Assembly: GCF_016586165.1 (NCBI RefSeq)
Contig: NZ_BCPR01000032.1
Span: 1 to 52,415, forward strand
Reading direction: 5' to 3'
DNA: 52,415 nt
Source of the DNA: Dyella sp. EPa41
GTDB taxonomy: Bacteria; Pseudomonadota; Gammaproteobacteria; Xanthomonadales; Rhodanobacteraceae
Of the stretch, positions 3,219 through 8,940 are shown in pieces. Each line of letters starts with the position of its first letter. Position 1 is the stretch's first letter. Position numbers and translations under genes: made by a program. Below the pieces are notes generated by a model. It did no database searches. It was not told the DNA's origin and was given only the letters and a program-made list of their open reading frames with translations.

Positions 3219-3971
3219 TCAATCGGCGCCGGCACCAAGCTGCCGCGACAGCGCGTAGAGCACGCGCAGGTCCTGCGCATCCAGCTCATTGCCGTCCATG
3301 CCGCGGAAATGGTGGTGGAACGAGCGCACCGTGGCGGCCCGGTCGTCCAGCGGATAACCGATCAGGCCCAATGCCATCCACGGGTCGAAGCCCGGCGGCG
3401 GGTCGGCCAGCACGCCGCGCGGCCACAGGCCAAAGCCGGCGTCGGCCAGCAGCTGCCAGGGGAAGCGCGGTCCCGGGTCGTCCTTGCGTCCGGGGGCGAG
3501 ATCCTCGTGGCCGATGATCTGGGTGCGCGGGATGCGCAGCCGGTCGGTGAGGTCGGCCAGCAGGCGCAACAGGCTGTCGATCTGCGGCTGGGTGAAAGGC
3601 GAGTGCCCGTCGTTGTCGAGCTCGATGCCGATCGATGCCGAGTTGACGTCGGTGATGGTGCCCCAATGCCCCGCACCGGCATGCCAGGCGCGCCTGTCAT
3701 CGGACACCAGCTGATAGATGCGGCCGTCATGGCCCACCAGGTAATGCGAACTCACCGGGCCGCCGCTGTTCGCCGTGCGCAGCGTATGCAGCGCCTGTTC
3801 GGCGGATGCCTCGTCGGTGAAGTGCACCACGATCAGCACCGGGCGCCGCTGGTCGGCATTGGGCGAGGGTACCCATTGCGCGATGGGGTTGCGCACGGGT
3901 GCCGGCGCGCAGGCGCACAGCAGGAGCATCAGTGAGGACAGCAGCGCAAGCCGGGCATGGGTCGATGGCAT
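3219..3971 (-). CDS. amiD: Lipoprotein N-acetylmuramoyl-L-alanine amidase, AmiD-like
   Basis: A 250-residue zinc amidase of the Amidase_2 (AmpD/AmiD) fold that would cut the MurNAc-L-Ala bond in peptidoglycan or its fragments. The internal ATG at 3971 gives a clean lipoprotein signal (SSLMLLLCAC), so the mature enzyme should be anchored in the envelope; an upstream ATG at 4055 would add 28 residues that spoil the signal. Zinc-ligand candidates are the His in VLIVVHFTD, the His in IIGHEDLAPG and the Asp in KDDPGPRFPW; the Glu in IGIELDND fits the conserved active-site region. Length matches E. coli AmiD, but I see no C-terminal peptidoglycan-binding domain. It follows efpL but is separated from it by a terminator. 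Confidence 0.82.
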   Translation of the reverse strand: MPSTHARLALLSSLMLLLCACAPAPVRNPIAQWVPSPNADQRRPVLIVVHFTDEASAEQALHTLRTANSGGPVSSHYLVGHDGRIYQLVSDDRRAWHAGAGHWGTITDVNSASIGIELDNDGHSPFTQPQIDSLLRLLADLTDRLRIPRTQIIGHEDLAPGRKDDPGPRFPWQLLADAGFGLWPRGVLADPPPGFDPWMALGLIGYPLDDRAATVRSFHHHFRGMDGNELDAQDLRVLYALSRQLGAGAD

Positions 3972-4031
3972 GGCGGTCACGTCGCGACGGGATGGTGCGA
4001 AGCTGCCGCACCGCGCTGGCGAGGTCAAGCG

Positions 4032-4065
4032 AAACGAAAACGGCGCCCGGAACACCGGACGCCGT
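4032..4065 (-). terminator. Rho-independent terminator of efpL
   Basis: Read on the minus strand, ACGGCGTCCGG-TGTT-CCGGGCGCCGT forms an 11-bp stem with one mismatch and is followed by TTTTCGTTT. It begins 25 bases after the efpL stop codon and separates efpL from the amidase gene. Confidence 0.75.
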
Positions 4066-5516: not shown

Positions 5517-5742
5517 GGGAAGTCCGTAAAGCGGTTGGAAAACGCCAATGGTAGCCCAGCGGGCACCATCCGGTCCGCAAGGCCGCCGCAGGCGCCCGGG
5601 TGGGCGGCCGGCCTATCACCGATAGCCGTACTTAGAGCTTTTGTCGGCGCCGGTTATATCCATTTTCCGGGCTCTTTTTGCAGTGCAGCGGAGTAAAACC
5701 CAAAGAGTTGGCTACAGGCGCCGCCACGGGAGGAGGGCTGCC
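5517..5742. promoter_or_regulatory. Divergent intergenic region, SDR gene / large membrane protein
   Basis: 226 bp between two divergently read genes. It contains a TATATC -10-like box at 5655-5660 for the plus-strand gene, with only a poor -35 match 17 bp upstream, and a small CTATC-ACC-GATAG palindrome near 5613-5625. A strong GGGAGGAGGG ribosome binding site lies at 5728-5737. No clear operator for a known regulator is visible. Confidence 0.4.
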
Positions 5743-8700
5743 ATGGAGCTGGGGGAAGACAAGCCGCGACACGGCAAGGGACTCGCCCGCATCTTGCCGG
5801 TGCTGGTCCTGTGGCATGCGCTGTCCGTTGCATGCCTGCTGCCCGCGGGCGTGGCACGGGCGACGGACGCGCCCCCGGGCTATTTCATGACCACCTCGCA
5901 ATTGGCCGATCCGCTGAAGCCGTTTGCGCATCTGCCCAGCCATGCATCGGTGCGGGTGCAGGCCGCGGTCATCGCACTTCCCGATCCGCTGGAAACGCGC
6001 CTGGGGCGCGCCTTCGATGTCGAGGTCGGCGCCGTGATCAGCGCCTTCCAGGCCAGCGGTTACGCGCTGGACGGTTTCGCGCTGGCGTGGTCGCCGCGCA
6101 AGCCGGGCGATGGCGACAGCTACCCCGGCAGCGACGGCCCCGCACGCAACCTGCCCGGCGTGCTGTTGTTCCGGCATGACAACTGGCGTGGCTGCCATGC
6201 GCCGCCGGACCCCGAGGCCTTCTGCGGTTCGACCTACTACGCCTTGTTCGTGGTCGGCGAAACACCGACGTCCGGCGTGCATCCCGAGGCTTTCGACGTG
6301 GCCGCGCGCTGCGTGATGGCCGTGGACGGCATGCAGGACCTGGGGGCGGCTGCCGATGTCGCGTCGCTCGACTGCCACGCCATCGCCAAGGACGCCAAGT
6401 CGTCCGACGGGCTGATGAAAACGCTGGGCTGCGGGCGCCGGCTGGATGTCATTGGCCCATCCTTCTCCGGCTCGATGGAGTCGATGGCGGCGGCTCTCGG
6501 CAGGGTAGCTGCCGATGCCGCCGCCTGGACCTGCGCGGGTTCCGGGGCCCGCGGGCTCAAGATCCGCCTGGTGTCACCTTCGGCCAGCGTGGACGACAAC
6601 GAGAACATCAACTCCCACGCGTACCTCAAGGCGGCGGACGTGCCCTCGTTCAAGGTGTCGTTCGAGTACCGCGCGCTGGCCTACAGCGTGGCCGACCAGA
6701 TGGACACGGTGATGGACTACCTGGAGCCACGCCTCGGGCCCGATGGCAACGTGGTCGTGCTCAGCGAGGAGTCGAGCTTTGGCGAAGGCGCACGCCATCT
6801 CGCCACCGATCGTCTCGGCCCCCGCAATGCGATCTGCACGCGGCGCCACGAAGGAGAAAGCAGCGCCGGGCAGCATTGCTGGGGGCATCTGGTCAACGTG
6901 CAGTTTCCGCCCAATATCGCGGCGATCCGCGCCGAGCACGTGAAGGCCAGGCAGGACGAAGACGCGCAGCGCAAGCAATTCCTGCCCGATCGCCTGCTCG
7001 AACTCGACCTTACCGGCGTGGACAAGAGCGCGGACCAGCCGCCGACCTACCAGCCAAGCCTCACGTCGCGTTCGGACGAGCTCATGCTTTACCAGACGTT
7101 CGATGCGCTGAAGAAGTACATTCGTCCCGCCGCGGTGATCATCGTGGCGACCGACGTGCGCGACCGGTTGTTCCTGCTCAGCGAAGTCAGGGACCTGCTG
7201 CCGGGGTCGCTGCCCATCGTGCTCGAACAGGACAACCTGCTGGCGCATCCGGATTATCGCGACATCAGTCGCGGCAGCATCACCATGCCCGCCGGACAGA
7301 GCCTGATCTGCCTCAACAGCGACAACGAGCCGATGCCGTGCCCGCCGGGCGAAGGGAAACGGAGCCTGTCATCGACTGGCGAGGACACCTGGACATGTCC
7401 CCTGGTGCCGCGGCATTTCGCTTTCGCCACCGACTACGCCGCCAACATGTTTCGCGCCGCGGCGCGACTGGCGAGGCTGCAGTATCTGCCGGCGGAGAAG
7501 CAGGATACGTTCACCGCGGCCGATGAAACCTGGTTGGCGCCGCCGATGCTGGTGGCCACGCTCGCCGGCTTCCAGTACGTGGATATCCAGAGCAAGCCAT
7601 CGGACACGGCCATCGCGACAAGTCCCTGCAAGGCGAAGCCGCTGCCGCAGGGGCGGCAGGACATCCTCATCGTGGCCGACGCGCGCATCCAGTTGCAGGA
7701 GCCGGTGTACCTGGCGATGACCCTGTTCTTCGCCGTGATGCTCGCGGTGGCTTCGTGGCTCGCATGGAACGGACGCGACGTTTCGCTGGTGGCGTTTCCC
7801 GTATGCCGCCACGCTTTGCGATGGATGCGCGTGACGCCGAACGCCGCGGAACCGCTCCGCCACACCTCGTCGGGATGGCTTCTCGCGTGGCTGGCGTTTG
7901 CTCTCGCAGGGCTGGTGATTGCCGGTGCCAAGGTCATCACGATGCTGCCGCCGCCTTCCTATGGCGACACCAACCTCGCCCATGGACGTGACCCGTGGGC
8001 GTTGCTGGCGTTGTGCCTGGGCTATGGGTGTTTCGTCGCGTTCGCGGCCCTGCGCCTGCTCGACTGGAACGCGCACAGCAACGTGCTCTCCCAGGCCATG
8101 GGCGAGGATTCGCGCTTTGGCGTGCGCCTCAGGCAGCAGGGGCATTGGCATGCCGTGGCGGGCGCGCTGATCTTGCTGGTATGCCTGCCGCTGAGCGTCA
8201 ATGACATGACGCCCACCAACACCGATCACCCCTGGATTTCCGAGTTGAGCGGGATCTTCGCGTTGGGCGGAAGCGCCTTCTTCTTCGTGCTGCTGGGCGA
8301 GACCTTCGATCGCTGGCGGCGGACCTGCCTGGAACTGGCCAAGGTGATACCGCTGGTGCGCGAGAAGACGGGCCTGGCCGAGTGGCCCACGCCCTGCCTG
8401 CTCGATGAGCGCCCGCGCAGCCCGTTCAACATCGTCATGCGCAGCGACAACTACGATGCATGGCGCAGGCAACCGCAGTCGGCGTGGGCAGCGCAGACGC
8501 GAAGCCTGCTCGACCACGCGTGGCCGTTCGGCGCCGGTGGGCCGTCGTTCCCTGTCTGGCAGGCGCAACTGGTGTCGGAGATGAAACTGGCCGCGGCCGC
8601 CGTGCGTACATGCGCATGGTGCGCCGTGCTGGGCGCCACGCTGGCGTTGATGCTCATGCAGGTCTACCCGCCGGTCTACCCGCGGCTGCAGACCACCGCG

Positions 8701-8940
8701 GCCACCATCCTGCTGGGCCTGTCCTTCGCGGCCATCGTGTATGCCGTGCTGCAGTTGGAAAAGGACGCACTGCTGGGGCGCATGTTCACCGCCGACAAGG
8801 ATCACCTCACGCTGGGCGGGGCGTTGTCGGCGTTGTGGCCCAAGCTGCTGGCCTTCGGCTCCATCCTGGTGATGGTCTTCCTTCCCAGCGCATGGGACTG
8901 GGTGGGCGGACTGGTGAAGGCGATCAATTCGCTGCATTGA
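5743..8940 (+). CDS. Large uncharacterised receptor-like protein: periplasmic binding-protein-like domain plus eight membrane spans
   Basis: 1065 residues; I recognise no described family. The ATG at 5743 was chosen for the GGGAGGAGGG ribosome binding site; an earlier frame-open start at 5641 has none. A signal peptide (ILPVLVLWHALSVACLLPAG, cleavage near AVARA) leads to a ~600-residue exported domain. It has repeated strand/Rossmann-like segments: FVVGETPTSG (~168), DVIGPSFSGS (~235), VVVLSEESSFGEGA (~337), AAVIIVATDVRDRL (~463) and LPIVLEQDN (~490). VIGPxxSG followed by two alternating lobes resembles a type 1 periplasmic binding-protein (Venus-flytrap) fold. Several Cys pairs suit the periplasm. 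Eight hydrophobic segments follow at ~654, 711, 751, 802, 836, 952, 983 and 1033. A ~90-residue loop between spans 5 and 6 should be cytoplasmic. No kinase, GGDEF, HAMP or transporter motif is seen. Fold and sensing role are inferred. Confidence 0.6.
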   Translation: MELGEDKPRHGKGLARILPVLVLWHALSVACLLPAGVARATDAPPGYFMTTSQLADPLKPFAHLPSHASVRVQAAVIALPDPLETRLGRAFDVEVGAVISAFQASGYALDGFALAWSPRKPGDGDSYPGSDGPARNLPGVLLFRHDNWRGCHAPPDPEAFCGSTYYALFVVGETPTSGVHPEAFDVAARCVMAVDGMQDLGAAADVASLDCHAIAKDAKSSDGLMKTLGCGRRLDVIGPSFSGSMESMAAALGRVAADAAAWTCAGSGARGLKIRLVSPSASVDDNENINSHAYLKAADVPSFKVSFEYRALAYSVADQMDTVMDYLEPRLGPDGNVVVLSEESSFGEGARHLATDRLGPRNAICTRRHEGESSAGQHCWGHLVNVQFPPNIAAIRAEHVKARQDEDAQRKQFLPDRLLELDLTGVDKSADQPPTYQPSLTSRSDELMLYQTFDALKKYIRPAAVIIVATDVRDRLFLLSEVRDLLPGSLPIVLEQDNLLAHPDYRDISRGSITMPAGQSLICLNSDNEPMPCPPGEGKRSLSSTGEDTWTCPLVPRHFAFATDYAANMFRAAARLARLQYLPAEKQDTFTAADETWLAPPMLVATLAGFQYVDIQSKPSDTAIATSPCKAKPLPQGRQDILIVADARIQLQEPVYLAMTLFFAVMLAVASWLAWNGRDVSLVAFPVCRHALRWMRVTPNAAEPLRHTSSGWLLAWLAFALAGLVIAGAKVITMLPPPSYGDTNLAHGRDPWALLALCLGYGCFVAFAALRLLDWNAHSNVLSQAMGEDSRFGVRLRQQGHWHAVAGALILLVCLPLSVNDMTPTNTDHPWISELSGIFALGGSAFFFVLLGETFDRWRRTCLELAKVIPLVREKTGLAEWPTPCLLDERPRSPFNIVMRSDNYDAWRRQPQSAWAAQTRSLLDHAWPFGAGGPSFPVWQAQLVSEMKLAAAAVRTCAWCAVLGATLALMLMQVYPPVYPRLQTTAATILLGLSFAAIVYAVLQLEKDALLGRMFTADKDHLTLGGALSALWPKLLAFGSILVMVFLPSAWDWVGGLVKAINSLH

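Follow-up and report, generated by a model that had tools for sequence, protein, structure and literature searches.

Type 1 periplasmic binding-protein domains, or Venus flytraps, are known in bacteria chiefly as soluble proteins that work with transporters or as the input domains of kinases, cyclases and chemoreceptors. Binding proteins of the LivJ type (Peripla_BP_6, PF13458) have two lobes, a set order of motifs in lobe 1 and a Ser...(Ser/Thr)...aromatic-Gly pocket signature, and they serve an ABC transporter. In the class C receptors of animals, such as those for taste and calcium, an exported flytrap that catches amino acids leads into a polytopic membrane domain of seven helices, and ionotropic glutamate receptors carry the same fold as N-terminal domains on a membrane protein. 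The fold, and the principle of placing a flytrap on a membrane protein, are already known; G proteins of the class C receptor kind are not known from bacteria. Bacteria also possess multi-enzyme conflict systems whose domains include caspase, alpha/beta-hydrolase, papain-like and lysozyme-like types and which bear NTPase hallmarks, as described by Kaur et al. 2020 (PMC7159879).

The protein described here is encoded by Dyella sp. EPa41 within a window (the whole stretch of DNA analyzed) of 52,415 nucleotides. It shares with the LivJ type the order of the lobe 1 motifs, the pocket signature and the two-lobed fold. However, it has no Pfam match, its flytrap contains insertions and measures about 610 residues against 344, and this flytrap is fused to an eight-span membrane domain, whereas LivJ-type proteins serve an ABC transporter. 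As in class C receptors, an exported flytrap precedes a polytopic membrane domain, and the calcium-sensing receptor tops the Foldseek list for the exported part. A preliminary description of the gene had pointed to these receptors, and the resemblance stands for the ectodomain fold alone: hydropathy gives eight spans instead of seven, a large loop separates spans 5 and 6, and no cysteine-rich linker domain was recognized by eye. The N-terminal domains of ionotropic glutamate receptors likewise place the flytrap fold on a membrane protein, but neither a second ligand-binding domain nor a pore motif was recognized by eye in the Dyella protein. The combination of a flytrap with this eight-span domain in bacteria falls outside Pfam and NCBIfam and was not met in the literature matches listed; none of the papers among those matches deals with such a receptor, and as some of the result sets were larger than the lists, absence from the literature is unproven. 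Since the outer part is flytrap-like and distant relatives often lie beside cell-wall-, lipid- and protein-cutting enzymes, this undescribed large membrane protein of a soil bacterium probably represents a type of sensor that has no name yet in bacteria. Fusing a flytrap to a large polytopic domain that has no recognized output module would add another way of sensing across the membrane, in which the domains follow each other as in class C receptors, and the recurrent enzyme neighbors provide a concrete hypothesis that is open to deletion and ligand-binding tests.

The window corresponds to contig C32 in a genome of 4.9 Mb, whose nearest named relative among those compared is Dyella japonica DSM 16301. 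The open frame extends from 5641 to 8940 on the forward strand, with its first ATG at 5743, and translation of 5743 to 8940 gives 1065 residues and a stop codon, the length reported earlier. Direct reading of the sequence places a purine-rich ribosome-binding site, GGGAGGAGGG, at 5728 to 5737 (+), five bases 5' of that ATG. The preliminary description had claimed a strong ribosome-binding site of the gene's own, and this is borne out, as are the motifs that it quoted: VIGPSFSGS (residues 236 to 244), VVVLSEESSFG, AVIIVATDV and LPIVLEQDN are all present. Compared with the copy in genome G078 (88% identity), the gene has a dN/dS ratio of 0.16; the ratios are 0.28 and 0.37 against the copies in G102 and D. 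japonica, which are 52 to 53% identical and for which dS exceeds 1. These ratios argue that the gene is real, and it is under purifying selection.

The encoded protein begins with a signal peptide (residues 1 to 40; 5743 to 5862, +), which by eye is of the Sec type, with an A-R-A site after residue 40 and a hydrophobic span at residues 17 to 35. The exported flytrap domain follows (residues 41 to 654; 5863 to 7704, +), in keeping with the roughly 600 exported residues first proposed, and then a membrane domain (residues 655 to 1046; 7705 to 8880, +) that was delimited by hydropathy and charge. Hydropathy gives one N-terminal span and, as had been claimed, eight C-terminal spans, at residues 655 to 673, 717 to 735, 752 to 770, 804 to 822, 832 to 850, 956 to 974, 985 to 1003 and 1028 to 1046. 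Eight C-terminal spans were likewise found in all six of the closest members, once two weak spans within the L036 member's exported domain are disregarded. Lysine and arginine residues within 15 residues of the span ends, each counted once, number 14 in the four presumed cytoplasmic loops and 3 in the three other loops plus the tail, and the loop between spans 5 and 6 (8293 to 8607, +) is therefore placed in the cytoplasm. The cytoplasmic position of this loop had been proposed before and fits these counts, but its length is 105 residues rather than about 90.

The assignment of the exported domain to the type 1 periplasmic binding-protein fold is supported by profile-profile and fold comparison, which agree with each other and with the fold proposed earlier. 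Against a LivJ-type profile, hhalign gave a P value of 1.7e-5, with controls, the sequence-level support coming from lobe 1 only; lobe 2 compared on its own gave no signal (P = 0.34), so that of the two halves only the first was matched by profile. Among 21 single binding proteins, 18, including LivJ itself (0.056), failed to outscore the best of 210 decoys. One of those decoys, scoring 0.12, is a LacI-type regulator as judged by its N terminus, and LacI-type regulators share the type 1 binding-protein fold. Of 30 binding-protein loci, 23 had a usable frame, and the final alignment kept the 19 of sufficient length; the first alignment had 19 rows, two of them empty. Flytraps head both fold-comparison lists (Foldseek and VIA), the N-terminal domains of NMDA and AMPA receptors among them, and no unrelated fold was matched confidently. 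No Foldseek match reached an E value of 0.001, and the structure model behind these comparisons is poor (mean pLDDT of 47 and pTM of 0.43, with two sequences); on that model, the exported domain has two alpha/beta lobes of type 1 topology. No binding protein turned up in HMMER searches of PDB sequences, even with the threshold at an E value of 10, whether with the single sequence, for which phmmer returned nothing at all, or with the family profile. The 12 PDB matches listed for the family profile (E values of 0.53 to 9.2), among them PNS1, ComA, a glycine receptor, presenilin and a cannabinoid receptor, were rejected as chance level.

Conservation within the family centers on the putative ligand pocket. 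The ligand contacts of LivJ include S79, T102, Y150, Y202 and E226, and the LivJ sequence was confirmed to have these residues at those numbers. In the hhalign alignment, S242 in VIGPSFSGS (6448 to 6474, +) corresponds to S79, S282 in LVSPSASVDD (6568 to 6597, +) to T102, and F346 in SEESSFGEGA (6763 to 6792, +) to Y150. All 16 members have Ser at the first position, Ser or Thr at the second and an aromatic residue (Phe, Tyr or Trp) at the third, and thus possess the equivalents of the Ser79, Thr102 and Tyr150 of LivJ-like amino acid binders. Pocket residues of lobe 2 were paired by eye because that lobe lacks sequence-level support. There, the highly conserved stretch VATDVRDRLFL (7144 to 7176, +) holds D471 and D474, both Asp in 16 of 16 members, and D471 falls near Y202; in VLEQDNLLAHP (7219 to 7251, +), D497 and H502 are invariant in the same 16, and D497 falls near E226. 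The conservation of S242, S282, F346, D471 and D497 suggests that the ligand of the flytrap is amino acid-like.

At an E value of 10, the whole protein matches no family in Pfam or NCBIfam, the cut-off of PF13458 included, and it goes unannotated because it lies outside the coverage of both collections. Nor do their profiles reveal a kinase, cyclase, transporter or other recognized output domain at that threshold. The lack of kinase, cyclase and transporter motifs noted in the preliminary description therefore holds at the profile level, and the profile search that it had recommended places the protein in no characterized transporter or enzyme family. The reading that we favor, with somewhat better than even confidence, is an inner-membrane receptor whose periplasmic flytrap signals via the eight-helix domain to cytoplasmic loops. 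We infer that the flytrap would close around a small ligand, which is probably an amino acid or a carrier of an alpha-amino-acid-like group, and that closure would be passed through the membrane domain chiefly to the 105-residue loop after span 5. The output in distant relatives would likely be tied to envelope- or protein-degrading enzymes of the same gene cluster. The same architecture could instead belong to a transporter or channel, the flytrap handing its ligand to the attached eight-helix domain or gating it, in the manner of transporters with a fused binding protein or of ionotropic glutamate receptors. The fusion of a binding domain to a polytopic membrane part fits that explanation, as do the fold matches to NMDA and AMPA receptor domains. 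However, we consider it unlikely, as no transporter or channel profile was found in Pfam or NCBIfam, the best PDB match of the family profile has an E value of 0.53, and the seven window neighbors scanned (a dehydrogenase, EF-P, an amidase, FUSC, two acetyltransferases and an amidohydrolase) include no ABC permease or ATPase.

Gene surroundings differ between the genus and its distant relatives. In the four genus loci (the window, L015, L016 and L002), the receptor gene lies between a dehydrogenase gene and an acetyltransferase gene, both on the opposite strand, and none of the kinds of degradative enzyme seen in distant relatives directly adjoins it. The gene had been said to stand alone, which holds within the genus; many distant relatives, in contrast, have hydrolase-type genes as neighbors. 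The third gene upstream in the window (3222 to 4055, -) encodes an N-acetylmuramoyl-L-alanine amidase (Amidase_2, E value of 8.1e-36). An Amidase_2 gene occurs upstream of the receptor on the opposite strand in all four genus loci, a position from which a functional link is not claimable.

Outside the genus, 16 loci were compared, with genes called by a rough custom caller and active-site motifs read by eye, and a hydrolase or hydrolase-like gene adjoins the receptor on the same strand in nine. In L017, the neighbor is an alpha/beta hydrolase whose best Pfam match (E value of 5.8e-5) is just under the cut-off. A small conserved protein is encoded on the receptor strand in L018 and L020, with a sub-cut-off match to a DUF900 hydrolase in L018. 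In L037, such a protein is followed by a metalloprotease on the same strand, and in L019 by a 973-residue protein with Amidase_2 and caspase matches and then by an HExxH metalloprotease without a Pfam match. This small protein is encoded directly downstream of the receptor in L037 (6302 to 7042, -), L019 (12045 to 12677, +), L018 (12452 to 13174, +) and L020 (12688 to 13356, +), and it is hydrolase-like, yet by eye it lacks the usual GxSxG nucleophile motif. Three loci of one genus (L036, L038 and L039) have a partner of 887 to 896 residues, which in L036 matches a muramidase (E value of 2.5e-61) and, below the cut-off, papain and hydrolase families; the L038 and L039 partners were assigned through their 87 to 88% identity to that of L036. 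The middle part of the 973-residue L019 protein is similar to the hydrolase part of the L036 partner. In L054, genes for a Tle1-like phospholipase, a lipoprotein and a peptidoglycan-binding protein (GH19 match below the cut-off) precede the receptor, and a PhoD-like phosphatase follows it. The remaining loci include four with ordinary neighbors: peroxidase and thioredoxin-like genes (L035), TauE (L042), ThiF and FtsZ (L051), and a response regulator and formyl transferase (L052). The sole enzyme neighbor of note in L040 is a subtilase on the opposite strand, and a contig end cuts one side of L041 and L053, with a VirJ-like gene several kilobases off in L041.

The link between receptor and degradative enzymes in relatives is thus recurrent but not obligatory. 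A search of 18 receptor genomes for homologs of the L036 partner found them in 6, the genome of the window not among these. The metalloprotease was found in 6 of 299 genomes of the order, two of which (G209 and G410) also have the receptor, although in G410 the two genes lie on different contigs; a search of the window's genome did not find it. Relatives of the C1-peptidase/hydrolase and of the metalloprotease are present on plasmids, and the receptor profile found nothing in five plasmid stretches or in five chromosomal partner regions. A dedicated receptor-enzyme partnership is weakened by the occurrence of the enzymes without the receptor and by the finding of the L036 partner in only those 6 of the receptor genomes searched.

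Several relatives of these enzymes were seen away from the receptor. D. japonica encodes an unlinked 953-residue protein (L098, 7353 to 10214, +) with peptidoglycan-binding and papain matches, similar to the L036 partner (35%), in the hydrolase part of the latter, and to the peptidoglycan-binding/GH19-like partner of L054 (43%); it therefore resembles partners from two unrelated receptor loci. The HExxH metalloprotease family, which has no Pfam match of its own, was also found in L099 (3679 to 7167), L101 (4667 to 8977) and L102 (6260 to 9580). It lies near Tle1-like phospholipase genes in L101 and L102, and in L099 it forms a fusion with a subtilase, next to a metallo-beta-lactamase-like gene. 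On a plasmid of the cyanobacterium Kovacikia minuta (L116, 5481 to 8471 and 9001 to 10630), a frame whose start resembles, by eye, the L019 amidase/caspase partner adjoins the metalloprotease, in a stretch with no receptor homolog.

These neighborhoods allow the favored receptor model to be extended. The protein may be a counterpart of class C receptors in design, with an amino acid-type flytrap driving the eight-helix domain; in fuller operons, it would activate or release cytoplasmic endolysin-, lipase- and caspase-/papain-type enzymes in a ligand-triggered envelope-degrading or suicide response, and the window copy would be the sensor half, its output unlinked or different. Put in this complete form, the proposal appears improbable to us. 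The enzyme repertoire beside distant receptors is similar to that of the conflict systems above, and no flytrap receptor is named in the sections of Kaur et al. 2020 (PMC7159879) considered here. We also give little credence to a receptor and release gate for self-lysis or defense, whose ligand would free endolysin-, phospholipase- and protease-like enzymes of the same operon in the cytoplasm. Its appeal lies in the same-strand degradative enzymes of L019, L036, L038, L039 and L054, which by eye lack signal peptides, and in a patchy distribution with several broken copies. However, no partner directly adjoins the window's gene, the enzymes also occur without the receptor, and the ordinary, contig-cut and L040 loci described above count against it; a search with PADLOC for a known defense gene gave only a chance-level HORMA match (E value of 0.039). 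That the receptor confers immunity to type VI secretion effectors (Tle1-like or GH19-like) or regulates them, as the phospholipase and peptidoglycan-binding genes of L054 could indicate, is most improbable, and is rejected as a general explanation, because TssB/VipA (PF05591) was found in only 3 of 18 receptor genomes, the window's not among them, with E. coli positive as a control.

The receptor itself is sparsely distributed. Matches were found in 4 of 20 genomes of the genus, in 7 (single sequence) or 8 (profile) of 197 genomes of the family, and in at least 9 of 299 genomes of the order, at least 4 of 321 of the class and at least 7 of 398 in a sample of the phylum. These tallies overlap and include the window's own genome, and the larger ones are lower bounds, as at most two or three candidates were scored per genome. 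No copy was found in the viral contigs and plasmids searched. The receptor is split into two frames in G091 (L018) and G405 (L038), cut short in G381 (L039) and in pieces in G593 (L041), and the matches in G873 and G037 are fragments. The frameshifted, cut-short or scattered copies in L018, L038, L039 and L041 suggest rapid gain and loss of the receptor, and some of them lie in genera that have an intact copy elsewhere. In L040 (7906 to 10122, -), a receptor relative ends at 739 residues, after the flytrap and without the membrane part. It sits behind a gene of 550 residues that has no Pfam match, in a stretch whose third-position G+C is below that of its surroundings.
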